Assembly: GCF_037975245.1 (NCBI RefSeq)
Contig: NC_092571.1
Coordinates: 17,603,917-17,667,916, forward strand
Reading direction: 5' to 3'
DNA length: 64,000 nucleotides
Source: Apostichopus japonicus
Lineage: Eukaryota; Echinodermata; Holothuroidea; Aspidochirotida; Stichopodidae
The notes below the pieces were generated by a model. It saw only the letters and a list, made by a program, of their open reading frames with translations, was not told the DNA's origin and made no database searches. Of this stretch, positions 20,401-62,666 are shown one piece after another (position 1 is the first letter of the stretch; each line of letters starts with the position of its first letter). The position numbers and the translations under genes are program-made.

Positions 20401-23400
20401 ATTGGCCATATATATAGGTACCTTAAAGGAGCGGTCTGCTAACAGAAGTGGAATACTTTAAGACTTTGTTAATTTTTTTTTTTTAGTTTTTCTGTATATT
20501 TACGTTGAGCTTATTCCGCCATGTTTTATTGCGGTAAGAAGACAAAAATAACTTTAATTCCAATATGACTTGGAAATTAGTCTCTTCTCATTTTAAAACA
20601 CATTTTAGTAGCAAAGTAAATCAATGAATTGTTCACTTGAAGTAAACTTGATTGTTTGTTTGTATCGCGAGTGATGACTCAAGTCACTCAATAGTCCCGA
20701 GCAGGAGCTGTATAGAGGTCTCAACTTAAATGGAGTACTCGAATCGAGTGAGGTACTCGAATCGAGTGAGGTACTCGAATCGAGTGAGGTACTCGAATCG
20801 AGTGAGGTATTCGAATCGAGTTCAGGAAAATGGGTGTAACGACTTGACATGACCTTAACTTGACCTTAACATGAAAGTGAATCGTTACAACTCTACTCTT
20901 TCCTCCTCTTCATTGTGGTGTTTTATCTAGTTTTTTCTTAATTCAAGTAAACGCATCTGAAGGTCACGTGGTATGCGTTGTGAGTGCCCTTCCCACAGAT
21001 TCCGTAATCCGGTCGCTTGCCGGTATAATCCTGTATCACATAGTATGTGTGAAGATTACGAAAGGAAGATCAAATCCAAAACAAGAGGGGTGAGGGAGGG
21101 AGGGATGGAGGGAGGGGAGAGAGTGGGGGGGGGGTAAGGGTGCATGAGTGAGGAGCTGGGGTATTCTATAGATCTCCGATAATCGTGTTTGCACTTCGAT
21201 TTTCTTTTGTACACAGATTGGAATTCACCAAGTGGACCAAGTGCGACCATTAGCACTACTTGTGCCATTATGAGCGTAACTGATGGCACGTGGGAAGCCT
21301 ACTCATGCGATGCCCCGGAAGGAACAAGTCACTATGCTGTGTGCATCCCAGGTTGGTATAAGGAAAAAACACTGAGTACTTAGGACAAGGGGATATAGTA
21401 GGATGGAAGGGGGGGGGAGGAGGTGTTATTTTTAATGGGACATTTGTAGATTTGTGTATAGGAGGTTAACGAATACCACTTTGCAAAGGACTAGAATAAG
21501 ATCGGAAGATGGTTTAATGAATGCAACTCACTGTAATGGTATCATCCTTGGCCGTTTAACTCTCAACGTCATTACAAAGTACTGGCGCCGTTACACAAGC
21601 ACAAATAATCAATATCGAATTACTCACTCCCTTCCAAAAGTACCTGAATATATTCCTTGCGAGAGTAGCGATCAGGCCAAGTGGAAGTTGGTGGCCTCCT
21701 TCATATTTTTTCACTCCCTGAAATAAGATAAAATAATCGTCTGTATGATAGGCGCTTTGCCGTGAACCCTTTATGTGGCGATCAGTGGTAGGGTAAAACG
21801 GAAATATGTCAATTATAATTTAGTTTTGAAGAAAATAGTCAAAAACGTCTATTGACGGGAAAAACTACCAATTGTTAATCTTTAAGAGACTTTAGTGAAG
21901 ACCTCGAAGGTGAGAGTGTTTGAGGATTGGAGTGTTTGAGGGAGGGATGGTTTAAATGTGGGAGGAAAGGGGGGGGGGGGAGTGAAGATGTGGTCCCTAT
22001 GTCTTAAGAAATGCTAGCTTTAAAATAGAAACATAGGTCTCAACTAGAACAAAATAATACCTATTTTTCGATTCTGGAGTTATTTTCGCAAAGCAGAGAT
22101 TATGAAATATTTGGGAAAATGCTTACAAACACTCCTACGGGTGATTAAAATGATAGGCATATATAAGAACAATTTGTTAGTCTTTGCGTATTTGAAATTA
22201 ATTTGCAAGTTGTGTCTGGAATTCTATATAAAAGTATTAAAACGCAGTCTTTGTTTTCTTCTTACCTTAACAGCTCCACCTCCCCCGGTAGCAATGCCAC
22301 CGCCAGTAGGCCTGGTGCCTAATTGTCCAGATAATTATTACACCTGGCAAAGTCGTTGCTACCATTTATCAACAGCGCCCTTCTCAAGTTGGAACCTAGC
22401 AAACGATTACTGCAAGTCGTATCCGGATAGCCGAATTTTCACACCTAAAAGTTCTACTGAGAATGACTTCATACAGACTCGCTTAGGAATATGGGAAGGC
22501 CAATATTCTCGGGTGTGGCTAGAGGCTACATACGCAGAAGCTGAGAGCGTTTGGAGATGCGGAAGGGACACGTGTTCTTATCTCAGTGAGTCCTTCAAAA
22601 ATTCAGATAGGATTGACTTACACATTTCCGTTAGAAGGTGAAATAAGTCAGTGAATACAGGCCCCGGGGTCATTGGTCAATTGGGGGGAACGGAGAAGCA
22701 TAATATAAACGTATAATACATTCTTTTTTGCAGAGGAAGTTCGTCGTTATATGTCCATGAATGTAACATGAATTGAAGATGTCAGATCATAGGGCCGAAC
22801 AGGTAACTCGTCACCTGGTTCTCGACGGGCGCCCTCAATTTGACGTACCTATATACTAACATAGTTATGATCGGCAAAAAACTTACACACGTCAAAGTGG
22901 AATATGTTACTAACATTCATTTGACAAAGGTTATTTACAATAGCAAAAATTCATGATATAGAAAATATGACATGCTTCTCTGATTTAAAGGGTTAATTAT
23001 TTATGTAGTTGAAGTTGACTGCTTTATATAAAATGCTGGTTAGTTTTTGCATCTATAAGTATAACACTATACCTCCCTCGTTGTCGAACGTGGTATAACA
23101 AAGATTTGAATTTTTCAGATTTTGTTGTATTTCGTGAACGCATCTGGCAACAACAAAGTGAATGATGTCATCACGGCAATTCAATGATTTTGTTTTAGTG
23201 GTAATATCTAACTCACTTAATCACATAGAAAATTTATATTTCTACAAGAACGTTGCAGCGGCATTTTGATGAATTTCTAAATATTGACAATGTCGACAGT
23301 TAAGTACACATTCCAAATGCAATCACCGTTTCAATAACAAATCAACAAGAAAAATATCACGGGAAAGTCGAACTTTTGAAGAACCGATTTACCGTGATGA

Positions 23401-47204: not shown

Positions 47205-47425
47205 GTCCGGTTTCAAAGCAAATTGTGCTGACAGTATGAGCATATAAATGTTAGGAACTGTTCATACTGTCAGTACGAGTGCTTTGAAGCATTCTATGAA
47301 GGGACAGTATAGAGTGGTATTTGCATTAAAATCAGATAAAGGTTAGAAACTGTTCATACTGTCAGTACGAGTGCTTTGAAGCATGATATGAGGGGACAGT
47401 ATGGAGTGGTATTAGCATTGGAAAA
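47205..47425. repeat. Fold-back repeat, two tandem copies
   Basis: TTCAAAGCA...GTGCTGACAGTATGAGCA near 47211-47244 is the inverse of CATACTGTCAGTACGAGTGC TTTGAAGCA that follows. The second arm, from GTTAGAAACTGTTCATACTG to GGAGTGGTATTAGCATT, is repeated a second time about 90 bases later. Confidence 0.8.
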
Positions 47426-47621
47426 ATTGTTCCAACTGGTTGACCAATTATAACAGCTTTATGATTAGCCACAATAGTCTTCTTGTTTCAGCATAAATAA
47501 CCCTGGGCATTCCAACCATCAAATTCACTTCTGTTTTCCCAGTCAGCAGGGAGGTACTTTAACTTATTATTTCTTTATAACTATTTCATATTTATTAATT
47601 ACTGAAGGGAGTTAGTTGAGA

Positions 47622-50600
47622 CATGGAGCTATAAACAGAAGGAGAAAACCCACTCTCTAATGTCCGTAAAACAATCAATCATCGCCTTAACCACCCCGCT
47701 GAGTTTCGCGACTAATATCAGTAGCGATCATGTTACATCGGGCAGTGCGAAGCGACCGCGCGAGCTCCTTTGATCTTGCATCATTGTAACCGCCGCAAAT
47801 GGAGAAAACGACTGGTTGTGTAAAAATAAGCTTATGAATATGCATGTACTAAAGTTCAAAGTGCGTCAAGTGCATGTTTAATTCTGTTTTCTAGCGCCAT
47901 GGTGACAGCTTCGAGATTAAAATCTGATTAAGTCCAACGCTAAAAGCTATATCTTTGGTCTAAAAGAAACCCGATATCGTTGTACGAAACATGCACTGAG
48001 TTAGCCTTGTTTTTCAAGATTCAGATTTTACTGACTTCGACCGAAAAACTGCCCTGTTTTTCGCGGATTTTCTCGCTTTCCGGACATTTCCGGATAGAAT
48101 TCCATCGTGTTATGTGCTTAGGACGACCTATTGTTCACAGTGTACAACGACAGGATAGTGTACGGGTATGTACGAAAATGCTATTCGACTTAGAATTTGC
48201 TATGTATTTTCACTCTGACTGCCGAAATTACAGGTTGCACAAAATGGCGTCTGTGATAACTTGCACAATGACACGGATGCAGTCAAAGAGTAATTGTTTT
48301 TAAAGTGATTTTAATAATGATGCTCAAAATATATGAACATTAGCCCATTTCATGAGGGTTAAAATTGTAGTCCACTGGCCATAGGCTAGGCCTAATTATA
48401 ATAAGTGTTACTGTTAGGGTCGAGAGCCTTGGCCTATAATATAAATAATAATATTACTAGTCCCTTGCTTGTCCAATCTCAAGTGTGAATGAAAATACTT
48501 ATTGTAAGACATGTTGTGAACACTTAACTGAGATTCAAGGGCTACATTAAGCCTTAACATTGTCAGTAACCCTGGGTCAGTAGCCAACAAAAGAAGAATC
48601 TCTGTTCGATTGCTTGATTTATATTTATTCGATTGGCCTAATATTTTTGTGGCTCATGCCCTGGGCTAGATTGGGCCTAGTGGATTAAGTTACATAACAT
48701 AGACCATGTGTAGGCTGGTGTAGTTGCTGCTGTGGCAATGTGACCTACCCACCAGTAAATAAAAAATACAAATCCATGCAGGCTCTAAGCCCATGGCCCT
48801 TGAAAATATGGATAATTTTCTAAATAGTTATGTGCAGGCCCCTGTCCTGACTATATTGGCTTCTTGAAAATGTTCATAAAGTAGGAGTTTAGGTAGATTC
48901 CATTGCAAACCAGATGCATTGGATTGAACTGCAATTGTGCAATAAAATACTGTATTTATGTCTCTTACGGTACTACAAAGAACTGACTGCACTGGGCCAC
49001 ATTGTTACATCACTGCATTTATTGAATTGAATTAGAAGGTATTGTCCACAATAGGAAATTCGGCTTACACAGGTCGATAAACGAAAAAAGAAAAGAAATA
49101 AAGAAAAGAAATAGTATAAGTATCAAGTACCATTGATGCTCAAAAGAAAGATTTCCTTCTGTTTTATTCAATAAGTTTATTGACCCATTTGGAAAAAAAA
49201 ACATTGATTTTATGTGGGAAGTAAAAGTAGGCCTGCATGTAAATTAAAACATAATGTTAACTTGCTTACACTTTGGCCATTTCTTTTTCTCAAGGTATGA
49301 CTAGTGCCCATCGGGAATGCTTAAGAACATTGTGCTGATTATGTGGCAGCTCAAAGACCATCCCAAGTGACAAGGCACCAAAAACTAAACAGGGCTACCA
49401 TGCTTGGATATTGGGCACAATGTTTTGTCCTTGATGGTTGCAAGTTCCAAGGCAATCAGTTCATTACGTAGTTACTGCCGCAAAAGGCCAAGAGAGGAGG
49501 AAGCAGATCGCAGTTAAACCAACTTTTTCACTTTATGTATGGAACAATTTTTCAGTACATTTCCATATGAAGTAACAGAATTTATTTTATTTTTTCGTGG
49601 AACTGGTAAATTGTAATAATGAGAGAACTCGAACTGATTTTATTGTTCTGGATTTATTTCACAGTATTTTAATTTTTTATTTGTACCTTTGTTGTTCTAG
49701 TACTTAAAGTGGGGATTTCTGCTAGAAGAACATTGTCATTTGTCCATGTGCTCTAGATTATTTTTTGGTGGAACTAGTACAGTATATTTAAATAACAATG
49801 TGGTGATTTGATCTTGTATAGTTTTCATGTTATATTGTGAAGTAGTTTTATTTTCCTTTTGTTTAGTACAATATATACAGTAAAGGAACTCCAACTTGCT
49901 GTTCTGTTTTTTGCCAGCTCTCATTATTTCACAGCCCTATAGTTTACACTGCTTAGCAATATGATGATAGAAATAGCAAAGGTAGTGTAGGGAAAGGTGC
50001 CCTTATAATCATATGCATAACATTGAATAGTCAAGTTGTCAACCAGAGAGCAGTGGTCAAGCGACTAAAAGGAGGTGCCATCCTGGCTGTTACATTGTGC
50101 CCATTGGGGATTAAAATCACATTTTGTGCTCGAATTATGTCCATATAAGTAAACTCATGTAGCTAAATACATTTTAATTTTGCTGGCACAAAGCCTAGGA
50201 AGGTAGTGGGGTGGGAGGGGTTAGTGGGTGTCTTAAGGAGTGAAGGTGGGTCAAGAGAAGGAGCCAGTGTGATGGTATTGATGGTGAGTTTATGGAGCTC
50301 CAAATGCCAAAGGTAGTATGAGGGTTTTACTTTTGAGAGATAGGGAGTTGGGCATCTGCGAAAATTGTGGGAAGGATTCTAAATGCTGGTGAGGATATTG
50401 GGGGTGTAGAGAAGACTAAGCTAGTAAGCTTTGCCAACAGAGAAAGAAAGGGATGAAATCGTCCATGCTGAGCTATGGTGCTTCTTTCAAGAGGGTGTTA
50501 ATATTGCGAAGGTGAGTTTTGTGGTTGTCACTGTGGCGATGCTGCCAGTCCAATTTAGAGCGGATGGTGTCCTACCTACCAGACCTACAGTAGGTGGTGT

Positions 50601-52080
50601 TGAAGAGAAAGCATGTGTCACCTTTGACCTTCATCAATAAAATTTACAAGGAAACAAATCACAACAAAGTTTAAACTTTTAATTTGTACAAAACTGACAA
50701 TATTCTAGTTCCACTATATTTCTCTGAACTAAAGTAAACTTGTTATAAGCTTGAAAGATGAGGTTTGTCATGGAAAGAACAAACAAACTATGTAAGTATA
50801 CAACATAATTATCATAAAATCAACATATATAGATACCAATCATGTTACTCTCAGTTTCACTCCTTGCTTTCACTTGCCAATTCTTTTCTGAATGGTTTTT
50901 CTCCTTTCTTGCTACAAGAAGTCTTCCTTTTATTTTTAACTTATCTCCATGTACATTCTAACAAAAGCATTTACTCTTAATTTTACCCAATAAACAACAA
51001 ACGTATGAAATTTGAAGCAACTGCCCACTTAAGTCCTCGTTTAACAATTCTTTAACAAGATCTGCCCACCGACTTGAACTGGCTTGTGTTGCAGAAGTTT
51101 TTGCAGAAGATGGTCTTTCACATTTTTATTTCTCAAAATAAGCAAGGTCTTCATGTTTAAAATTTGCTTTGTCTGAAATTCCAGTCTTGAAAAACATGAA
51201 AATATTATCATTAACTAAGAGTAATCCACCTCTATTTTGTTTTTCCACCCAGGCTTTAGTGTAATCCAAAAAACTGTGACCTTCACCTGCAACAGACATA
51301 CAGTTTAAGCACTGTAAAAATATTAAAGCATACTGCTATAAAGCTTAACTTTCATGTAACGTTTTTTTAATGGCAAATGGCACATAACCTGCTAATTATC
51401 TTAGAAATTGTTCCTCATGTTTTTCAACAATTAATGTATCTTCCAAATTTATGTCGTCTGGAACATCCAGCCTCTCAAACTCTTCAATCATCAGCTTCAC
51501 CATAAATTCAACTATATCCTGTAGCATGAACATTTCTAATGTCCTCGGCGGATGCAAAGTTTTCTGGCAGCCATGTTTCGTGTTATATTAATTTTGTTAA
51601 TTTATAACACTAGGTTCCCAATGCAATAACAAACAGCGCTAACGTTATTTGCCTAACGAACGAAGAAAGGTTTTATCGGAAAATACTTGACTGGAAGTAC
51701 CTATTTCGCCATTACTTGTTCATATATTGCGATGAAACATATGCTGAGATAAACAATTAATTATTAAGTACGAATCTTCGAATGATTCGGTGAGAAATAA
51801 AAGATATATTTTGATCGAAATTTTCACAAGTACGCGTAACGTAACATACATGAGTACTGTGTATACTATTTCAATTACATATACGTTAGGATCGGAGTGT
51901 CTGTTGTTATGTTGCGAGGGACGCTATATACGAAATGACCTTTGTACCAGGATTACGTAATAGCTGATGATGGCTTTACTCGTGTTTGTGCCCTGAGGCA
52001 TGTTTACTTATGGCGATCAAATTTTGTCGGTTACAATGATACTTCAAAGTGGGTTTTCTCCTTCTGTTTATAGCTCCATG
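47622..52080 (-). mobile_element. DNA transposon copy 1, 4459 bp, 33-bp TIRs
   Basis: It begins CATGGAGCTATAAACAGAAG and ends with the reverse complement; the TIRs match over 33 bp. GTTGAGA flanks both sides (47615-47621 and 52081-52087), or GTTGAGAC if an 8-bp duplication overlapping the first base is assumed. Every position checked is the exact complement of 58201-62659 about the axis 55140.5, with no length difference. Coding remnants lie on the minus strand at 51126-51287 and 51345-51534. The superfamily is not certain: TIRs near 31 bp beginning CATG with 7-8 bp duplications recall P-like elements, but this is only a resemblance. Confidence 0.92.
51126..51534 (-). pseudogene. Transposase C-terminal remnant (copy 1)
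   Basis: Mirror image of 58748-59155 in copy 2; see that entry for the reading frames and the internal stop. Confidence 0.6.
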
Positions 52081-52087
52081 GTTGAGA

Positions 52088-53187
52088 CAAGTCATTTACA
52101 CCTTATTACAAACTCTTCATTTAAATTTTTATAATTTTTTAATAAAAGCCATGATTTTCAAGGAATTTTTCATAAGTTACAATGTTTGCTGGTCCTGTTG
52201 TAAACCTGTAAACTTAACAAATTAAAATCAATGGATATGTATGTATAAAAGGATTGAAAGCAATCGAGGTCACAATTGCCAGTCCTTTGACACTGTTAAC
52301 TCAACAAGTATGTATATACTGTTTTTTTTGTTGTCCTGTTTACATTGATCATCATTATATAACATAACTTCAATTTAACCAGCAGGTCCCTCCACCCCCC
52401 CAATCCATCCCTTCAATCGCTAAAACCAACTGCTATGATAGTCTCTCTTTGCTGGTCCAACTACAGGAGCTGGTAGTTAGCTGCAACAATGTATGTGGTA
52501 CAAGCCCGGACTAAATGTTGCTCTGCTTAAATTACAAGAGACAAAAAAAATGAAACGCCCACCAAACAGTCTCTCTTGTTGCTTTGATCGCCTGTCAATA
52601 AAGCAAACTTACAATATATGTACAGTTTGTATTGTGCATTGCGAGTTTCTTACAGCTCTGTTCGATAACATCTCATTTGACACGCCCCTTTAGTCATACT
52701 TACCTTAAAATAAATAACATTTCATGACCTTTGACCTTCTGTCTTTCTACAACACTTGATACCTGTCAATGATGTCATTGCATGCTGTCAATGTCTGTAT
52801 ACAATTCTTGGAATACACAAACATCTCTGTTGGCTAACTTTGATGGCCGCACAATAACCATCTTTTCTTCAATATCTACAAAGGCTTAAATAAATACTGT
52901 AGGGTCGCAAAGCCATTCTGTCGGTTTTGTTCTCTTCTTGTGCTTAAAGGTCCAATTTTTCTCAAAACTGCGTTGTCCCTGTCTCAAGTTAAATCGTTGT
53001 CACTCTCTCTAGTTTAAGGTGAAATGATACTTATTTCTATCACCTTACCAATCAACCAAATGCCATTACTGCCAAATACAACAAGACAACTCAACTTCTC
53101 GGAGTCCAATTTTGAACACTGACAGTTTGCCCTGATATCAGTATAGTCACTGGCCCTCCACAAGGTCTCTTCAGAGATGGTTAGTCC
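52088..53187. other. Downstream flank and probable 3' UTR of TAF10
   Basis: No other exon recognised. The TAF10 transcript (minus strand) should end in this stretch; I did not find a convincing poly(A) signal. Confidence 0.45.
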
Positions 53188-53280
53188 CTAAGTGAAATAC
53201 ACCGGTTTCTTGACGTTGATTCCGTGGTCAGATAGCGCAGCACTCAAGTCATCCATGGTTAATGTGTACCTTTTGTCTTG
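53188..53280 (-). CDS. TAF10: TAF10 exon 5, with stop
   Basis: Acceptor TCCTTCTTAG, then QDKRYTLTMDDLSAALSDHG and INVKKPVYFT with TAG. It matches the conserved TAF10 C-terminus in length and sequence. Confidence 0.95.
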   Translation of the reverse strand, partial: QDKRYTLTMDDLSAALSDHGINVKKPVYFT

Positions 53281-56200
53281 CTAAGAAGGACCAGATAAGA
53301 AAGTAATACAGTTATCGTTTATGTTTATAATACTTTGTAAACTGTTGAAAAAAGATGAATAAAGAGAAATATATATGTCCTATATGTACTGTACAGTTTA
53401 TTGAACGGCCTAGTAATGCTCATTTGAGCAGAAGCCTGAAGGCTAATGTATAAAACCTGCAAAAGGCAATCAATTTACAGGGATAAGAAACAGTCTTACA
53501 CAAACATGATATACTCATATACTGAGACAGGTTACAATATAGTCGAGTGAAATGGCTTAAACAACCAAGTATGCTTATAAACGCACTGAAGCTAAATTCC
53601 TTAGTGAACCTCTTCCTATGAATAAGCACCCCATAGCTAATCCCTCACCCTGTAACTAAACGCTCATCCCATAGCTAATCCCTCACCCTGTAACTAATCC
53701 CTCATCACATAACTAATCCCTCACCCTGTAACTAATCCCTCATCCCATAGCTAATCCCTCACCCTACAGCTAATCCCTTGATCATACCTTTCCTGGTCTT
53801 CTTGCAGTTTGGACTGATCCCTTCATCCTGCAGTGTTGAAGAGCGTCATTGGCGATGTCTGAAATGAATTTCTGGGCTGCCAGGGAAACAACTCTTACTC
53901 TAGATGGGGAATATAAAAGTTCTTAAAGTGTCACAACAGCAGAACACTGATGGGGATTTTTTTCGTGTTTTAAATAAAATTTATAAGAGCATTTACAGTT
54001 CCCCCTGATTTATTTGTTCCCAAGGACTCCATAAATTACTTTTTAAAAAAACCCTACAATAGCTGGAACACCTTTGCAAACAACTTCATCAATAAAATTC
54101 TTAGTATCAATTTGCAAACTTCTTGCTTAAATATGTGTAACCTATTACAATTCAAGGACACAAAATTATACCTTAACTAGCACATTTATAAAAATACAAC
54201 TCTCACAATTTTCTATAACTCCATCTCAGCTTTGAGAGCTGTCAGAGGTCAATTACCGTTCACACAGAAGATGGTACTTACAGTCTTGGATCTGCCGTTT
54301 CAAAGCCGGCTCTGTTGAGATAATAACCAGTCACTGCCTCTGGAATCTTCACAGAGAAAATAAAAAATTTCTTTGTCAAAATAAGTGCAGTTCAGTTAAC
54401 ACCTTCCCAATGCAAACAGACTAAACATGTGGTTTGTTCTCTTTCAAACTTCGTATTAAATTTCGACTTCATAATTGAATGCATCGTAAATTTGTAATAT
54501 GACCGTGGTATTTAGCACACCCAAACACCAACCTACTTCAGGCACCTTAAAGTTAACTTGGATTCTTAACCAAGCCAAGATCAAAGAGTAGACAAATATG
54601 CAAACCAAACTGCTTTGGGTTGACACACATCTATGACTTGACACCTGCTTGCTTCACCCTTCACTACATGTGATGTAGCCACTTCACAACTACTTTATTT
54701 ATTTATTTTATTTAATATACAAAATTTCTATAGCGCCTTATCCAATCAGAAATTGCTCTAAGGCGCTTTACAGTAAAATACATACAAACATGATACACAA
54801 ATATATAAATCGATAATGTAAGGTATAAAAAGGGTAGAAAATTTGTTATATACAATCTGACAATAAATTGTATAAGAAATCTGCAAATGGGAAATCGAAA
54901 ATTATACAAACAAATTCTTAAAATTTAAAATATATATATACAGTATGTGAAAAATTTTAAATTTTAAAAGCGCTATACAGTAAATGCAAAATGGAAAATG
55001 CATTGTAATGTGACAATATAAATAGTATAGAAAGCACGGTTAATGGAATGCAGATCTAAATAGAAAGGTTTTGACTAGTTTTTTAAATTCATCTATATTT
55101 TTGGAACACTTAGCTTCCTCCGATAAACTGTTCCATAATGTCGCAGAGGAGTAATCGAAACGCCTGTTTCCGTAAGTAGAAGTTTTAATGACAGGTTTGG
55201 TAAGTAAGGACTTGGATTCTGAGCGTAGAGATCGAGTAGGCTTGTATTTATGTATTAATTCTACCAATACTTCAGAGTGACACGTCGGAATTACTTGGAA
55301 AAACATGACCTAGGATACGTTACACGTACAGAACAGTATGTTCCCCTTAATATATTTGAAGTATTCTTTTACTGTTGACAGCAACCCTGTGCTGTAGAGG
55401 CACAATACTCGTGTCCTGTATTAAACTTCTAACGTTTTTGTACACATAACAGCAGCATAGATTGGGGGAGTGGGGGGGGGGGGAGATGCAGTAGTCGACA
55501 TGGTGAGGGTATTGCCTGCTTACAGTGTAGGCGCAGTACCATGCGTCATTATCACAGACTCTTTACTTACCGTGGGCGCATAGTCTCCCATATGGTTTAA
55601 CATATCTTCCAGGGAGTCACCAGCTAATTGGACTCCCTCCAGCTGTTTATCTTCAATTTCTGATGACGTACTACTGGAGTTTGAGTTGGTAGAATTCTGA
55701 CTAGCCAGTGCCATGTTTGGACTGGATTGCGGTCCTCCCCCATTTTCTGTTGAAAAAAACAAAACAAAATTTAAAAACAGACATTTTTACTATTATTTAT
55801 TATGTCACTTGCTATTGCGTGTACATTTTAACAGATTGAAGTTACAATGTTATACCTATGATAGTATTGTTACCGGGATTTTAAGAGTGGACACGTCTTA
55901 AAAATATTTGCATCCACTCACTATACGCAAGTCAGCCCAATCCCAGCCAGTTCCAACCCCTTCCCCATTACAGTATGTAAATTCAATGTAGATTAAAAAT
56001 TCAAGTGCTAATGGCTACTTTTGACGACGTATTAAGTATATAGTTTACACTCACAAAAAATTTAACTGAAGGATGTGGTCAAAGGGACTGCGATATACAA
56101 ATTACTGTGGTGTGATTGTACATTTTACTCTAGTAGCTCTCAATGCGGAGAGAACAAACATACTGTACTGTGAGATTAAAATCCTTTTCAGTATCAGATG

Positions 56201-58138
56201 TATATTAGCTACCCACAGAATTCATAAATGTCTCATAACATTTTGTGATCAAACAATGATTCACATATATATATATGATTCATATTCTTATAAAACAATT
56301 CAACTACAACTGCCTAGTATCATGGGTGCATCTTGTCAAAATATGTGTCAACAAGGCCTAACATGATGATATTTGAGTGCATACATATGAAAGCCTATAG
56401 CACAAACTTTGTTATCTCTACACAGGGGACAGTAACATTGCATTAGTTGCATTTAAACAACACACTTTGTGTTCATTGATCACTATAGATGCAAGAATGT
56501 TTGCAGACAATGGTAAAGGAATATTAGATAATCAAATCTCAGGAAATTTGGTTATGCATCATTGACTAATTTCAGCATAAATATCTCTGTAATAGGAGTG
56601 TTGTTACTCCGTACTTTCCGGTTGATTGTTATGATTTAATTGTTTTCAAACAAATTCAATCATCTGTACAAAGGATTGGAAGAAATTTTGGTTCTTTTCA
56701 GAAGTTGTGGCTTTTTAAAAGAAAGAAAGATATACAGTACAAAAAAGTGTTTGCTATGCTTTGCATGGGCCTAGTTGTGAGCTTGCGGTTTGTTCCCCGC
56801 CCCCCCACCCAAAAAAAGTGTCCGTCCGCAGGACGCAAGCAATATGAAGGTTGTGCATCCTTGGATAAAAGATTGCGTTTGTAACAATGCTGTATGAAAA
56901 ATCTACCCAGTATATTACAAAGTTATTTATTGCTTTCATAATTAGGTGGGTGGGTTCCACCAATAAGTAGTAATGCTGAATTTTGAAATGACATAATACG
57001 TGTAAATCTTGCCACCTTCACTTATAAGGCTTGGAATGGACTCCTACCTAATGCATTTCATAATTATTTAATCAGTAATTCGGATATACATCACCACAAC
57101 ACAAGACACGCAAATCATGCACATTATCATTACACGAATACCTCAACAGGAATGTTAAGCCTCAGAAATCGCTCAATAAAAACCTGGAATTCTATTACTG
57201 ACATTATTAAAAATAAATTATCGTGTAGAACATTTAGAAAATGTTATATTAAAGAAATAATTGCATCATATTAATTAAAATATCATATAATTGATTTATT
57301 GTCAAAACGTTTAATTTGATCTTTAATTTTTTCTTCTCTTTTCTTTCTTCAGGGAGTCTTCTACATTGTTAAGCTATTGTATGCTTTATAGAAGACTTCC
57401 TTTCACCTTGTATATTTGCACGTGAAAAAACAAAATAATCAAATCAAATCAAATTTTGGGGGAAATTGAGGGTCCTATTATGACACAATCTACTTCAAAA
57501 GAGTGAGTCCGGAATTCACTTGGATGATCTTAAATGTGTTTACACACTATCATGTGTTTTAATTTAAACAGAACAAGTAAAAAAGAAAGTTCTAGAAGAA
57601 TAATATAGAGAATATTTCCTTCATTGGACACAAGCAAATAACAGTCTAGCCATTATAAATACGCTAAAATAAACAAAAGTTACTTTCATTGTGATGACTT
57701 TACATAGCTTTGCAAATTTACACTGTTGGTTAGCTTCACTAAGTGATGGTAATATGTAATTTCCGAAGAACGTCATAATAAAGTCTTAACTCTACTTGCA
57801 ACTGCAAGTCTTTCCATGTTTCACCAAAACTGAACGCATTCACCCAGTTGTCTGGTTTCCTTTCTGTTCATCAAACACTACACATTTTCATGCTCACAAA
57901 TGAAACCAACATAGCCTATGTCCTCTGATACAGTTACTGTGGGCCTAGTTTGACAATGCTTTGTGTATAACCTAGGCTAGGCCTTACTTTTTACCTTAGG
58001 ACATGTGATTGTCAGAGCCGTATATATACGCTCGATTTACGATGCATGTTTGTAGAGGTTAACTTAACGCATATAACGCTAACATCACATCTTATCCAAT
58101 TAGACAAAGATATTACCCAAAATAGGTTTGCTGTCCAT
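53188..58138 (-). CDS. TAF10: TAF10, TFIID/SAGA histone-fold subunit (5 exons, 155 aa)
   Basis: Coding exons on the minus strand: 58138-58117, 55746-55571, 54346-54282, 53899-53788 and 53280-53188, joined by GT-AG introns in matching phases (1, 0, 2, 0) with TAG at 53190-53188. They total 468 nt, 155 aa. The variable Ser/Asn-rich N-terminus (about residues 1-45) leads into LEDMLNHMGDYAPT and IPEAVTGYYLNRAGFETADP, then SLAAQKFISDIANDALQHC, RYTLTMDDLSAAL and the end VKKPVYFT. This is the TAF10 histone fold and its conserved tail. TAF10 is a nuclear subunit shared by TFIID and SAGA that acts in RNA polymerase II initiation and histone acetylation. The N-terminus is shorter than in the 218-residue human protein, as usual for invertebrates. 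Two LINE ends and a minisatellite sit in its introns, and inverted transposons lie on both sides. Confidence 0.95.
53628..53782. repeat. TAF10: Minisatellite in TAF10 intron 4
   Basis: A 38-bp unit made of two similar halves, CCCATAGCTAATCCCTCA and CCCTGTAACTAATCCCTCA, repeats about four times. It runs almost up to the exon 4 donor. Confidence 0.85.
53788..53899 (-). CDS. TAF10: TAF10 exon 4
   Basis: 112 nt between CCCCATCTAG and GTATGATCAA. It encodes VRVVSLAAQKFISDIANDAL followed by QHCRMKG, the core helix of the fold, then a basic linker ending ARRPGK. A minisatellite begins only about five bases beyond its donor. Confidence 0.95.
54282..54346 (-). CDS. TAF10: TAF10 exon 3
   Basis: 65 nt between CTCTGTGAAG and GTAAGTACCA. 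It encodes IPEAVTGYYLNRAGFETADP plus Arg, almost invariant in animal TAF10. Confidence 0.95.
54712..55310 (-). mobile_element. LINE 3' end (non-LTR retrotransposon) in TAF10 intron 2
   Basis: Minus-strand frame 55306-55040 has YGNRRFDYSSATLWNSLSEE and FKKLVKTFLFRSAF, the typical end of CR1/Jockey-type reverse-transcriptase proteins. It is followed by a 3' region containing AGCGCC and AAGGCGCTTTACAG inverted words. 5'-truncated, in the same orientation as TAF10. Confidence 0.85.
55571..55746 (-). CDS. TAF10: TAF10 exon 2
   Basis: Acceptor TTTTTTTCAACAG at its upstream edge, donor GTAAGTAAAG after GACTATGCGCCCACG. It encodes ENGGGPQSSPNMALAS, a Ser/Asn run, and the start of the histone fold, SLEDMLNHMGDYAPT. 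Ends in phase 0. Confidence 0.93.
55751..57010. other. TAF10 intron 1, first part
   Basis: AT-rich; no feature beyond a short TA repeat near 56263. Confidence 0.5.
57011..57460 (+). mobile_element. Second LINE 3' end in TAF10 intron 1
   Basis: Plus-strand frame reads LLPNAFHNYLISNSDIHHHN, TRHANHAHYHY, SIKTWNSITDIIKN and FRKCYIKEIIASY with a stop near 57274, like the end of L2/CR1-type ORF2. The tail ends in AATCAAATCAAATCAAATTTT, a short tandem 3' repeat. Antisense to TAF10. Confidence 0.8.
58117..58138 (-). CDS. TAF10: TAF10 exon 1 (MDSKPIL)
   Basis: 22 nt: ATG, six codons and one base before the donor GTAATATC. The leftover G joins AA of exon 2 to give Glu, restoring the frame exactly. 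The exon is tiny, so this is the least certain TAF10 exon, but the phase fit and its position at the upstream end support it. A transposon terminus lies at 58201. Confidence 0.7.
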
Positions 58139-58747
58139 GCTCCGTGATGATATTGTTGTTTTCACCTGTGCCTAGGCTGCATATAGATTATTGGTTAGGC
58201 CATGGAGCTATAAACAGAAGGAGAAAACCCACTTTGAAGTATCATTGTAACCGACAAAATTTGATCGCCATAAGTAAACATGCCTCAGGGCACAAACACG
58301 AGTAAAGCCATCATCAGCTATTACGTAATCCTGGTACAAAGGTCATTTCGTATATAGCGTCCCTCGCAACATAACAACAGACACTCCGATCCTAACGTAT
58401 ATGTAATTGAAATAGTATACACAGTACTCATGTATGTTACGTTACGCGTACTTGTGAAAATTTCGATCAAAATATATCTTTTATTTCTCACCGAATCATT
58501 CGAAGATTCGTACTTAATAATTAATTGTTTATCTCAGCATATGTTTCATCGCAATATATGAACAAGTAATGGCGAAATAGGTACTTCCAGTCAAGTATTT
58601 TCCGATAAAACCTTTCTTCGTTCGTTAGGCAAATAACGTTAGCGCTGTTTGTTATTGCATTGGGAACCTAGTGTTATAAATTAACAAAATTAATATAACA
58701 CGAAACATGGCTGCCAGAAAACTTTGCATCCGCCGAGGACATTAGAA

Positions 58748-59155
58748 ATGTTCATGCTACAGGATATAGTTGAATTTATGGTGAAGCTGATGATTGAAGA
58801 GTTTGAGAGGCTGGATGTTCCAGACGACATAAATTTGGAAGATACATTAATTGTTGAAAAACATGAGGAACAATTTCTAAGATAATTAGCAGGTTATGTG
58901 CCATTTGCCATTAAAAAAACGTTACATGAAAGTTAAGCTTTATAGCAGTATGCTTTAATATTTTTACAGTGCTTAAACTGTATGTCTGTTGCAGGTGAAG
59001 GTCACAGTTTTTTGGATTACACTAAAGCCTGGGTGGAAAAACAAAATAGAGGTGGATTACTCTTAGTTAATGATAATATTTTCATGTTTTTCAAGACTGG
59101 AATTTCAGACAAAGCAAATTTTAAACATGAAGACCTTGCTTATTTTGAGAAATAA
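58748..59155 (+). pseudogene. Transposase C-terminal remnant (copy 2)
   Basis: From 58748 a frame reads FMVKLMIEEFERLDVPDD, then EEQFLR and a TAA at 58883-58885, directly followed in the same frame by LAGYVPFAIKKTL. After an intron-like gap ending TGTCTGTTGCAG, a second block (58994-59155) reads GHSFLDYTKAWVEKQNRGGL and FMFFKTGI before a stop. AGYVPF and NRGGL are words I associate with the C-terminal part of some animal DNA transposases. The catalytic core is not visible. Confidence 0.6.
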
Positions 59156-61977
59156 AAATGTGAAAGACCATCTTCTGCAAAAACTTCTGCAACACAAGCC
59201 AGTTCAAGTCGGTGGGCAGATCTTGTTAAAGAATTGTTAAACGAGGACTTAAGTGGGCAGTTGCTTCAAATTTCATACGTTTGTTGTTTATTGGGTAAAA
59301 TTAAGAGTAAATGCTTTTGTTAGAATGTACATGGAGATAAGTTAAAAATAAAAGGAAGACTTCTTGTAGCAAGAAAGGAGAAAAACCATTCAGAAAAGAA
59401 TTGGCAAGTGAAAGCAAGGAGTGAAACTGAGAGTAACATGATTGGTATCTATATATGTTGATTTTATGATAATTATGTTGTATACTTACATAGTTTGTTT
59501 GTTCTTTCCATGACAAACCTCATCTTTCAAGCTTATAACAAGTTTACTTTAGTTCAGAGAAATATAGTGGAACTAGAATATTGTCAGTTTTGTACAAATT
59601 AAAAGTTTAAACTTTGTTGTGATTTGTTTCCTTGTAAATTTTATTGATGAAGGTCAAAGGTGACACATGCTTTCTCTTCAACACCACCTACTGTAGGTCT
59701 GGTAGGTAGGACACCATCCGCTCTAAATTGGACTGGCAGCATCGCCACAGTGACAACCACAAAACTCACCTTCGCAATATTAACACCCTCTTGAAAGAAG
59801 CACCATAGCTCAGCATGGACGATTTCATCCCTTTCTTTCTCTGTTGGCAAAGCTTACTAGCTTAGTCTTCTCTACACCCCCAATATCCTCACCAGCATTT
59901 AGAATCCTTCCCACAATTTTCGCAGATGCCCAACTCCCTATCTCTCAAAAGTAAAACCCTCATACTACCTTTGGCATTTGGAGCTCCATAAACTCACCAT
60001 CAATACCATCACACTGGCTCCTTCTCTTGACCCACCTTCACTCCTTAAGACACCCACTAACCCCTCCCACCCCACTACCTTCCTAGGCTTTGTGCCAGCA
60101 AAATTAAAATGTATTTAGCTACATGAGTTTACTTATATGGACATAATTCGAGCACAAAATGTGATTTTAATCCCCAATGGGCACAATGTAACAGCCAGGA
60201 TGGCACCTCCTTTTAGTCGCTTGACCACTGCTCTCTGGTTGACAACTTGACTATTCAATGTTATGCATATGATTATAAGGGCACCTTTCCCTACACTACC
60301 TTTGCTATTTCTATCATCATATTGCTAAGCAGTGTAAACTATAGGGCTGTGAAATAATGAGAGCTGGCAAAAAACAGAACAGCAAGTTGGAGTTCCTTTA
60401 CTGTATATATTGTACTAAACAAAAGGAAAATAAAACTACTTCACAATATAACATGAAAACTATACAAGATCAAATCACCACATTGTTATTTAAATATACT
60501 GTACTAGTTCCACCAAAAAATAATCTAGAGCACATGGACAAATGACAATGTTCTTCTAGCAGAAATCCCCACTTTAAGTACTAGAACAACAAAGGTACAA
60601 ATAAAAAATTAAAATACTGTGAAATAAATCCAGAACAATAAAATCAGTTCGAGTTCTCTCATTATTACAATTTACCAGTTCCACGAAAAAATAAAATAAA
60701 TTCTGTTACTTCATATGGAAATGTACTGAAAAATTGTTCCATACATAAAGTGAAAAAGTTGGTTTAACTGCGATCTGCTTCCTCCTCTCTTGGCCTTTTG
60801 CGGCAGTAACTACGTAATGAACTGATTGCCTTGGAACTTGCAACCATCAAGGACAAAACATTGTGCCCAATATCCAAGCATGGTAGCCCTGTTTAGTTTT
60901 TGGTGCCTTGTCACTTGGGATGGTCTTTGAGCTGCCACATAATCAGCACAATGTTCTTAAGCATTCCCGATGGGCACTAGTCATACCTTGAGAAAAAGAA
61001 ATGGCCAAAGTGTAAGCAAGTTAACATTATGTTTTAATTTACATGCAGGCCTACTTTTACTTCCCACATAAAATCAATGTTTTTTTTTCCAAATGGGTCA
61101 ATAAACTTATTGAATAAAACAGAAGGAAATCTTTCTTTTGAGCATCAATGGTACTTGATACTTATACTATTTCTTTTCTTTATTTCTTTTCTTTTTTCGT
61201 TTATCGACCTGTGTAAGCCGAATTTCCTATTGTGGACAATACCTTCTAATTCAATTCAATAAATGCAGTGATGTAACAATGTGGCCCAGTGCAGTCAGTT
61301 CTTTGTAGTACCGTAAGAGACATAAATACAGTATTTTATTGCACAATTGCAGTTCAATCCAATGCATCTGGTTTGCAATGGAATCTACCTAAACTCCTAC
61401 TTTATGAACATTTTCAAGAAGCCAATATAGTCAGGACAGGGGCCTGCACATAACTATTTAGAAAATTATCCATATTTTCAAGGGCCATGGGCTTAGAGCC
61501 TGCATGGATTTGTATTTTTTATTTACTGGTGGGTAGGTCACATTGCCACAGCAGCAACTACACCAGCCTACACATGGTCTATGTTATGTAACTTAATCCA
61601 CTAGGCCCAATCTAGCCCAGGGCATGAGCCACAAAAATATTAGGCCAATCGAATAAATATAAATCAAGCAATCGAACAGAGATTCTTCTTTTGTTGGCTA
61701 CTGACCCAGGGTTACTGACAATGTTAAGGCTTAATGTAGCCCTTGAATCTCAGTTAAGTGTTCACAACATGTCTTACAATAAGTATTTTCATTCACACTT
61801 GAGATTGGACAAGCAAGGGACTAGTAATATTATTATTTATATTATAGGCCAAGGCTCTCGACCCTAACAGTAACACTTATTATAATTAGGCCTAGCCTAT
61901 GGCCAGTGGACTACAATTTTAACCCTCATGAAATGGGCTAATGTTCATATATTTTGAGCATCATTATTAAAATCACT

Positions 61978-62301
61978 TTAAAAACAATTACTCTTTGACT
62001 GCATCCGTGTCATTGTGCAAGTTATCACAGACGCCATTTTGTGCAACCTGTAATTTCGGCAGTCAGAGTGAAAATACATAGCAAATTCTAAGTCGAATAG
62101 CATTTTCGTACATACCCGTACACTATCCTGTCGTTGTACACTGTGAACAATAGGTCGTCCTAAGCACATAACACGATGGAATTCTATCCGGAAATGTCCG
62201 GAAAGCGAGAAAATCCGCGAAAAACAGGGCAGTTTTTCGGTCGAAGTCAGTAAAATCTGAATCTTGAAAAACAAGGCTAACTCAGTGCATGTTTCGTACA
62301 A
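61978..62301 (-). other. 107-codon open frame inside the transposon
   Basis: Present identically in copy 1 at 47980-48303 (+). No domain recognised. It runs opposite to the transposase remnants; its conservation only reflects the identity of the two copies. Confidence 0.3.
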
Positions 62302-62666
62302 CGATATCGGGTTTCTTTTAGACCAAAGATATAGCTTTTAGCGTTGGACTTAATCAGATTTTAATCTCGAAGCTGTCACCATGGCGCTAGAAAACAGAAT
62401 TAAACATGCACTTGACGCACTTTGAACTTTAGTACATGCATATTCATAAGCTTATTTTTACACAACCAGTCGTTTTCTCCATTTGCGGCGGTTACAATGA
62501 TGCAAGATCAAAGGAGCTCGCGCGGTCGCTTCGCACTGCCCGATGTAACATGATCGCTACTGATATTAGTCGCGAAACTCAGCGGGGTGGTTAAGGCGAT
62601 GATTGATTGTTTTACGGACATTAGAGAGTGGGTTTTCTCCTTCTGTTTATAGCTCCATGGTTAGGC

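Follow-up and report, generated by a model that had tools for sequence, protein, structure and literature searches.

A window of 64,000 nucleotides from the genome of the holothuroid Apostichopus japonicus (contig NC_092571.1) carries two identical transposable elements, placed in inverted orientation around the gene TAF10. Comparison with longer relatives in the same genome indicates that the two copies are probably non-autonomous derivatives of a two-gene transposon of the P superfamily, in which a RAG1-type zinc domain replaces the THAP domain and the second gene is related to the C-terminal domain of P transposases. The ends of the element, the target duplications, the identity of the copies, the domain content, and the convergent pairing of the two genes are established. 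The result on the RAG1-type domain comes from relatives outside the window and is stronger than the result on the pair itself. All genome comparisons concern this one genome, in an assembly of 671.6 Mb.

The inverted pair and its long relatives

The two copies form an exact inverted pair, 100% complementary, with 0 differences over 4,459 positions once the ends are placed at CATGG...CCATG (the repeat finder counts 4,460, since it includes a flanking base that happens to pair). The element starts with CATGGAGCTATAAACAGAAGGAGAAAACCCACT and ends with the reverse complement of CATGGAGCTATAAACAGAAGGAGAAAACCCACT, the spacer between the copies measures 6,120 bases, and the window is free of any N. 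A preliminary description of this DNA had reported two apparently identical 4,459-bp inverted copies, each with its own flanking duplication (GTTGAGA and GTTAGGC); its coordinates and length are exact, and each duplication matches on both sides. The features of the pair, in window coordinates, are the following.

47622-52080, + strand: copy 1, non-autonomous P-superfamily element, 4,459 bp
58201-62659, - strand: copy 2, identical element, inverted
47615-47621: target duplication GTTGAGA, left of copy 1
52081-52087: target duplication GTTGAGA, right of copy 1
58194-58200: target duplication GTTAGGC, left of copy 2
62660-62666: target duplication GTTAGGC, right of copy 2
47622-47654, + strand: terminal inverted repeat of 33 bp, 5' end of copy 1
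52048-52080, - strand: terminal inverted repeat of 33 bp, 3' end of copy 1
58201-58233, + strand: terminal inverted repeat of 33 bp, 3' end of copy 2
62627-62659, - strand: terminal inverted repeat of 33 bp, 5' end of copy 2
49243-49422, + strand: transposase-start remnant of copy 1, broken, three stops; 65% to residues 11-70 of L014:1756-3780:-
60859-61038, - strand: the same transposase-start remnant in copy 2
51180-51539, - strand: remnant of gene 2 (open reading frame 2, opposite strand) of copy 1, three stops; E 9.5e-28, 43% to residues 99-218 of L020:7184-8146:-
58742-59101, + strand: the same gene 2 remnant in copy 2

The window copies match longer relatives at both ends and inside, and they are internally deleted, dead, non-autonomous P-superfamily derivatives that have lost most of gene 1, the transposase. 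One of the three stops in the transposase-start remnant of copy 1 falls within the first CxxC of the RAG1-like domain, no open reading frame (ORF) of the copies exceeds 119 codons from stop to stop, and a Pfam scan of five ORFs, some of them these remnants, gave no match above the cut-off. Because the copies keep only broken pieces of the transposase start and of gene 2, they could move only with transposase from elsewhere, and they would have been mobilised by an enzyme supplied in trans. A little to the left of copy 1, at window 47232-47415, a 92-bp unit is directly repeated in tandem with 87% identity.

With at most three mismatches allowed, 51 places in the genome match the 33-bp end, 46 of them exactly, and none match a control pattern. 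The elements of the family range from 4.45 to 16.9 kb. Fifteen were read at both ends: the 7-bp target duplication is identical in 14 of them and agrees at 6/7 positions in the fifteenth (for one element, the chance of identical 7-mers is 6e-5), and its consensus is GTYNRAC. Checked against other copies in the genome, the members of the pair, at 0/4,459, stand apart from their nearest relatives, two further 4.46-kb copies on C15 and C10 that differ from them at 15/4,448 and 22/4,456 positions and from each other at 26/4,446. A copy on C8, which carries two inserts, shows 59/4,435 differences from the pair. This 16-kb copy was considered as an autonomous element and rejected, being a 4,459-type copy plus two inserts; its 5' terminal repeat is partly doubled, with 18 bp repeated before the full one (L001:247-297). 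We also rejected the counting of end matches as insertions: L036-L038 and L018 share one flank, and L011 and L012 have its reverse complement, so that a single insertion appears to have become lodged in another repeat and to have been multiplied along with it. L036-L038 (C4:5517793, C7:2842929, C3:4703555) are short matches to the last 940 bp of the element, and the flank they have in common with L018 is ATTCAACCATAGTA.

The transposase was read from the long relatives. The element at C17:16770475-16781120 has the same ends (1 mismatch at one end) and the target duplication GCCCAAC. It encodes a 675-residue ORF with the P-element RNase H domain (PF21787, 2.2e-26), followed downstream by pieces that match the GTP-binding insert (PF21788, 3.6e-6) and the RNase H C-terminus (PF21789, 3.4e-8), and its gene 2 is broken into overlapping frames. 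Three further elements look complete (C17:20911684-20921137, C17:23626432-23639549, and C3:19626415-19638456), each with two genes and perfect 7-bp duplications, and with transposase ORFs of 643, 628, and 628 residues, respectively. The first bears a related end sequence; the other two elements are near-identical, and both start with CAGGGAGTTG. Relative to the long ORF of C17:20911684-20921137, identity is 53% for the C17:16.77M element and 34% for each of the other two. The full element measures 9.5-13 kb in these intact-looking relatives.

By their core, these elements belong to the P superfamily: the RNase H domain, the GTP-binding insert, and the RNase H C-terminus are all above cut-off, PF21787 in three lineages (2.2e-26, 3e-27, and 2.8e-29), PF21788 in two, and PF21789 in three. 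The P-element helix-turn-helix family (PF12017) is above cut-off in one lineage of the three, and NCBIfam gave no match for three proteins scanned. When the transposase alignment is compared with solved structures, the best match is the Drosophila P transposase (1.6e-15). The DEM and DG motifs align with the DEM and D of Drosophila P, and the E lies within the stretch matched by PF21789; we take these to be the catalytic acidic residues.

Genome-wide, we merged the matches by hand into 32 transposase clusters and 19 gene 2 clusters, leaving out short non-autonomous copies. The transposase clusters are crowded, with 14/32 on C17 and 7/32 on C16 (binomial 5e-10 and 0.005), and two of those on C17 lie 5 kb apart. 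Some members have received other elements: the 11.2-kb copy at C9:14503612 contains a long terminal repeat retrotransposon with a gag-like ORF showing two zinc knuckles by eye (L009:3418-4551), and the decayed C17:17764666 element contains ORFs that resemble, by eye, the reverse transcriptase and endonuclease of a long interspersed nuclear element (L015:8252-9949, L016:480-1712).

The RAG1-type domain and the convergent second gene

The N-terminal part of the transposase resembles the zinc region of RAG1. Scans of whole ORFs with Pfam gave RAG1_imp_bd (PF12560) at 9.8e-11 and 4.4e-10 in two lineages, and a genome-wide search for this family found 2 places, both inside these P-type elements. 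We also scanned singly ten domain sequences from the genome, some of them short or from decayed copies. PF12560 matches all ten at E up to 1, is above cut-off in six, and scores better than zf-AD in eight, with a best value of 1.6e-13. A profile of the domain compared with PDB ranks RAG1 first (5.4e-9 and 1.6e-5). The domain alignment shows little or no variation at three CxxC pairs, at an HP, and at the H that precedes the last pair. Aligned with RAG1, the pairs fall on FCRIC, FCHDC, and SCDIC, which are C110/C113, C175/C178, and C210/C213 (with an offset of 86 between 21wb and the 1,040-residue RAG1 chain). The domain keeps all three CxxC pairs mutated in a study of the RAG1 zinc domain, which is described there as holding two zinc ions, binding double-stranded DNA, and taking part in nuclear localisation (PMC3124419). 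In the transposon, the domain would bind the transposon ends.

A THAP domain is usual in the P superfamily, yet membership depends on the core and does not require one. Among the best 150 of 557 THAP candidates, none falls within 6 kb upstream of the 15 transposase clusters that are matched to residue 80 or before, whereas 6 of the 17 clusters matched further in only have one (Fisher p 0.019); the ordinary THAP P elements of this genome thereby serve as a positive control. The comparison used 43/145 THAP matches, the rest being, by eye, on other contigs or far from clusters. Four of the 15 clusters begin at residues 74-80, and tblastn found the RAG1-type domain in L044, L051, and L052 (the fourth, C23, lay outside the tblastn). 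No THAP was found in the 5' parts of L020 and L014.

Gene 2 lies on the opposite strand and converges on the transposase. Its ORF spans 321-365 residues from stop to stop and is open at four loci (C17:20918183, C17:21109189, C17:23636257, and C3:19635140). Nine transposase–gene 2 pairings lie within 15 kb, and eight of these are convergent, with the element ends read for 5/8; the ninth pairs a THAP-type cluster (C17:16763914) with the gene 2 of a neighbouring element. Gene 2 has no Pfam match above cut-off and a single PDB match, at E 0.73. Its second half, however, is similar to the C-terminal domain found in this genome's ordinary P transposases (hhalign score 34.8, E 2.4e-4); 300 column shuffles scored no higher than 20.2, and the reversed profile scored 18.9. 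It also matches each of the two kinds of P C-terminus on its own (30.2 and 28.9), although the two kinds fail to detect one another (12.4). Gene 1 stops 33, 41, and 34 residues past the RNase H C-terminal match (in L020, L021, and L013), which suggests that the C-terminal domain lies on a separate gene. We consider it somewhat more probable than the contrary that the C-terminal domain of the transposase has become a gene of its own. The full element would then carry gene 1, a P transposase whose RNase H domain is split by the GTP-binding insert, and gene 2 in convergent orientation, with the transposase apparently divided between the two.

Several results weigh against this picture. For gene 2, the hhalign probability of the likeness to the P C-terminal domain is only 43%, and no gene 2 belonging to the same element lies within 15 kb of 24/32 transposase clusters. 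When two near-identical elements are compared, 1 silent and 3 replacement changes fall in gene 2, with no sign of constraint, and 6 and 4, respectively, in gene 1. For the N-terminal domain, similarity to RAG1 is low: in the third lineage, PF12560 reaches only 0.0025 in the whole 628-residue ORF, below cut-off, although 2.3e-7 for the domain alone, and it is below cut-off in 4/10 domain sequences (L045, L048, L050, and L044). The AlphaFold models have low confidence, with a predicted local distance difference test (pLDDT) score of 37.2 for the 643-residue N-terminal ORF (4 sequences) and 60.5 for the 139-residue domain, and with the latter model neither Foldseek (none below E 3.8) nor VIA-align (none with Z of at least 2) found a fold match. 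The THAP comparison covers only the best 150 of the 557 candidates. The RAG1/Transib core (PF12940) had no match in the genome in a search whose control was likewise silent.

Some of these results could be read as indicating a ZAD-type (zf-AD) zinc finger of the kind found in ordinary host genes, similar to RAG1 only through the ZAD-like domain of RAG1 itself and without a specific tie to RAG1. The zf-AD family matches 9/10 domain sequences, beats RAG1 in two (L050 and L044), and passes its own cut-off in one (L044, 8.9e-7). In the PDB list, RAG1 is followed by LD30467p (0.0036), which we take to be a ZAD structure, and then by the anti-sigma-F factor Fin (0.025); both are presumably small zinc proteins, to judge from their names. 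Yet the RAG1 family is the better match in eight of the ten sequences and above cut-off in six, RAG1 structures head the PDB list (5.4e-9), and the match continues beyond the zf-AD portion and takes in the third CxxC pair with the histidine before it. A ZAD finger of host type is rather unlikely, and we retain the RAG1-type assignment.

Origin of the pair around TAF10

The gene between the copies is the following.

53188-58138, - strand: TAF10, five coding exons (58117-58138, 55571-55746, 54282-54346, 53788-53899, 53188-53280)

TAF10 is complete, with four introns, all GT-AG, and a product of 155 residues that matches Pfam TAF10 at 1.9e-40 with all 102 positions covered. Its coding sequence begins at 58138, and copy 2 sits 62 bp upstream of this start codon, in the 5' untranslated region or promoter. 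The pair is an example of young P-type copies landing near a gene start and flanking a gene. The introns contain dispersed repeats (window 54694-55261 and 56987-57454), 91-98% alike to many places in the genome, and a tandem array with a 19-bp unit (window 53627-53797). Among the best 40 of 2,062 candidates, the loop between the copies has one full-length match in the assembly, and the other 39 correspond to two dispersed repeats within the loop.

The target duplications have not been exchanged between the copies, which points to two insertions. According to the preliminary description, the inverted copies of the transposon around TAF10 arose as separate and recent insertions, and this stands: each copy keeps its own matching duplication. 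Had the two copies been as old as their divergence from those on C15 or C10, about 15-22 differences between them would be expected, against the 0 seen. Random insertion of 15-30 elements would be expected to yield 0.002-0.008 pairs within 6.2 kb, so the closeness of the two copies fits local hopping. The P element is known to hop locally, over about 50-150 kb, and to insert around promoters (PMC7776569). A recent local hop is the most likely source of one of the two copies. On this account one copy would have landed 62 bp ahead of the TAF10 start codon and the other 6.1 kb away, in either order, each insertion making its own 7-bp duplication.

Nearby inverted repeats are able to convert each other, and the perfect identity of the pair, which by itself cannot tell conversion from a hop, is also compatible with older copies whose inverted arms have been homogenised by gene conversion. 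This counts against a recent hop. However, the identity reaches both outermost bases across 4,459 bp while the flanks and duplications differ, and the divergence from two other copies amounts to no more than 0.34% and 0.49%, which indicates that the subfamily is young; we regard conversion as unlikely. Mis-assembly can also create long exact inverted repeats, and the preliminary description had feared a palindromic artefact. That worry is answered in part, in that flanks and 7-bp duplications differ between the copies; the loop, moreover, has its single full-length match among the best 40 candidates, and copies with proper ends are present elsewhere in the genome. An artefact seems very improbable.

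The pair could also behave as a composite transposon or drive inversion of the TAF10 segment, as the preliminary description suggested. Inverted copies of P-superfamily elements do generate inversions in Drosophila, and ectopic recombination between inverted copies swaps the target duplications, as reported for Galileo (PMC2775673). Here the duplications are unexchanged, from which we infer no net inversion in the haplotype of the assembly, and an inversion is not supported as having happened. The transposase-start remnants point inward from both outer ends, so that the outer ends are both 5' and the inner ends both 3', and a composite using the outer ends would have to pair two like ends; the 5' and 3' ends of the P element are unlike (PMC7776569). 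No second, moved full-length copy of the loop was seen in the assembly among the best 40 of 2,062 candidates. The case for a composite is weak, and either behaviour is very unlikely; two insertions, the second by a local hop, remain the preferred account.

Elsewhere in the window, a C-type-lectin-like exon (22048-22641) and a threonine-rich, mucin-like ORF (40545-41327) were recognised by eye.

The source of the RAG1 N-terminus and known systems

The catalytic core of RAG1, the recombinase of antibody genes, has been traced to Transib transposons, and the source of its N-terminal zinc region is disputed. The RAG1-like domain in the P-type relatives may bear on the source of that part of RAG1. 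A paper of 2015 states that the RAG1 N-terminal (Chapa) domain and the RING occur in no known transposable elements outside the Transib superfamily (PMC4411706). Our literature search found no report of a RAG1 domain in a P transposase; it covered open-licence papers only and is hence no proof of novelty. If P elements share a RAG1-type domain, the origin of the RAG1 N-terminus becomes testable, the domain would travel between unrelated transposase cores, and its ancestral role, e.g., the binding of transposon ends, could be tested directly. We can go further only tentatively. It is conceivable, if doubtful, that the N-terminal zinc region of RAG1 is a module common to P-superfamily and Transib/RAG transposons, carried by a two-gene P lineage in place of THAP, with N-RAG-TP of Aplysia as the front exon of an element of this kind. 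The module would then have been acquired, either by RAG1 or by the P lineage, through recombination between transposons, and the split of the transposase, with its C-terminal domain on a convergent gene, would parallel the convergent RAG1L-RAG2L.

The elements share with the Drosophila P element and zebrafish Pdre2/THAP9 the transposase core with its GTP-binding insert (PMC7776569; PMC10983969), with Pdre2 the ends that begin CAT (PMC10983969), and with the P element the internally deleted non-autonomous copies, that element also hopping locally and inserting around promoters (PMC7776569). They differ from both in a duplication of 7 bp instead of 8 bp, in a RAG1-type domain at the place of THAP, of which none was found in the comparisons above, in a C-terminal domain apparently on a separate convergent gene, and in a length of 9.5-13 kb against 2.9 kb. 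Galileo, a P-superfamily element of Drosophila, also has a 7-bp duplication, GTAGTAC there and GTYNRAC here (PMC2775673), but it differs in its very long terminal repeats and in encoding a THAP transposase, where we find repeats of 33 bp and no THAP. With the central non-core domain of RAG1 (residues 87-217) and the Chapa domain of TransibSU/Chapaev, the domain described here shares three CxxC pairs and an N-terminal position (PMC3124419). It is attached to a P transposase core instead of the Transib/RAG1 core, Pfam scans gave no RING match, in contrast to RAG1, and the duplication is 7 bp as against 5 bp in RAG/Transib transposons. The Aplysia N-RAG-TP is likewise a transposon coding for a protein similar to the RAG1 N-terminus, but by its description it is composed entirely of that part (PMC8355894).

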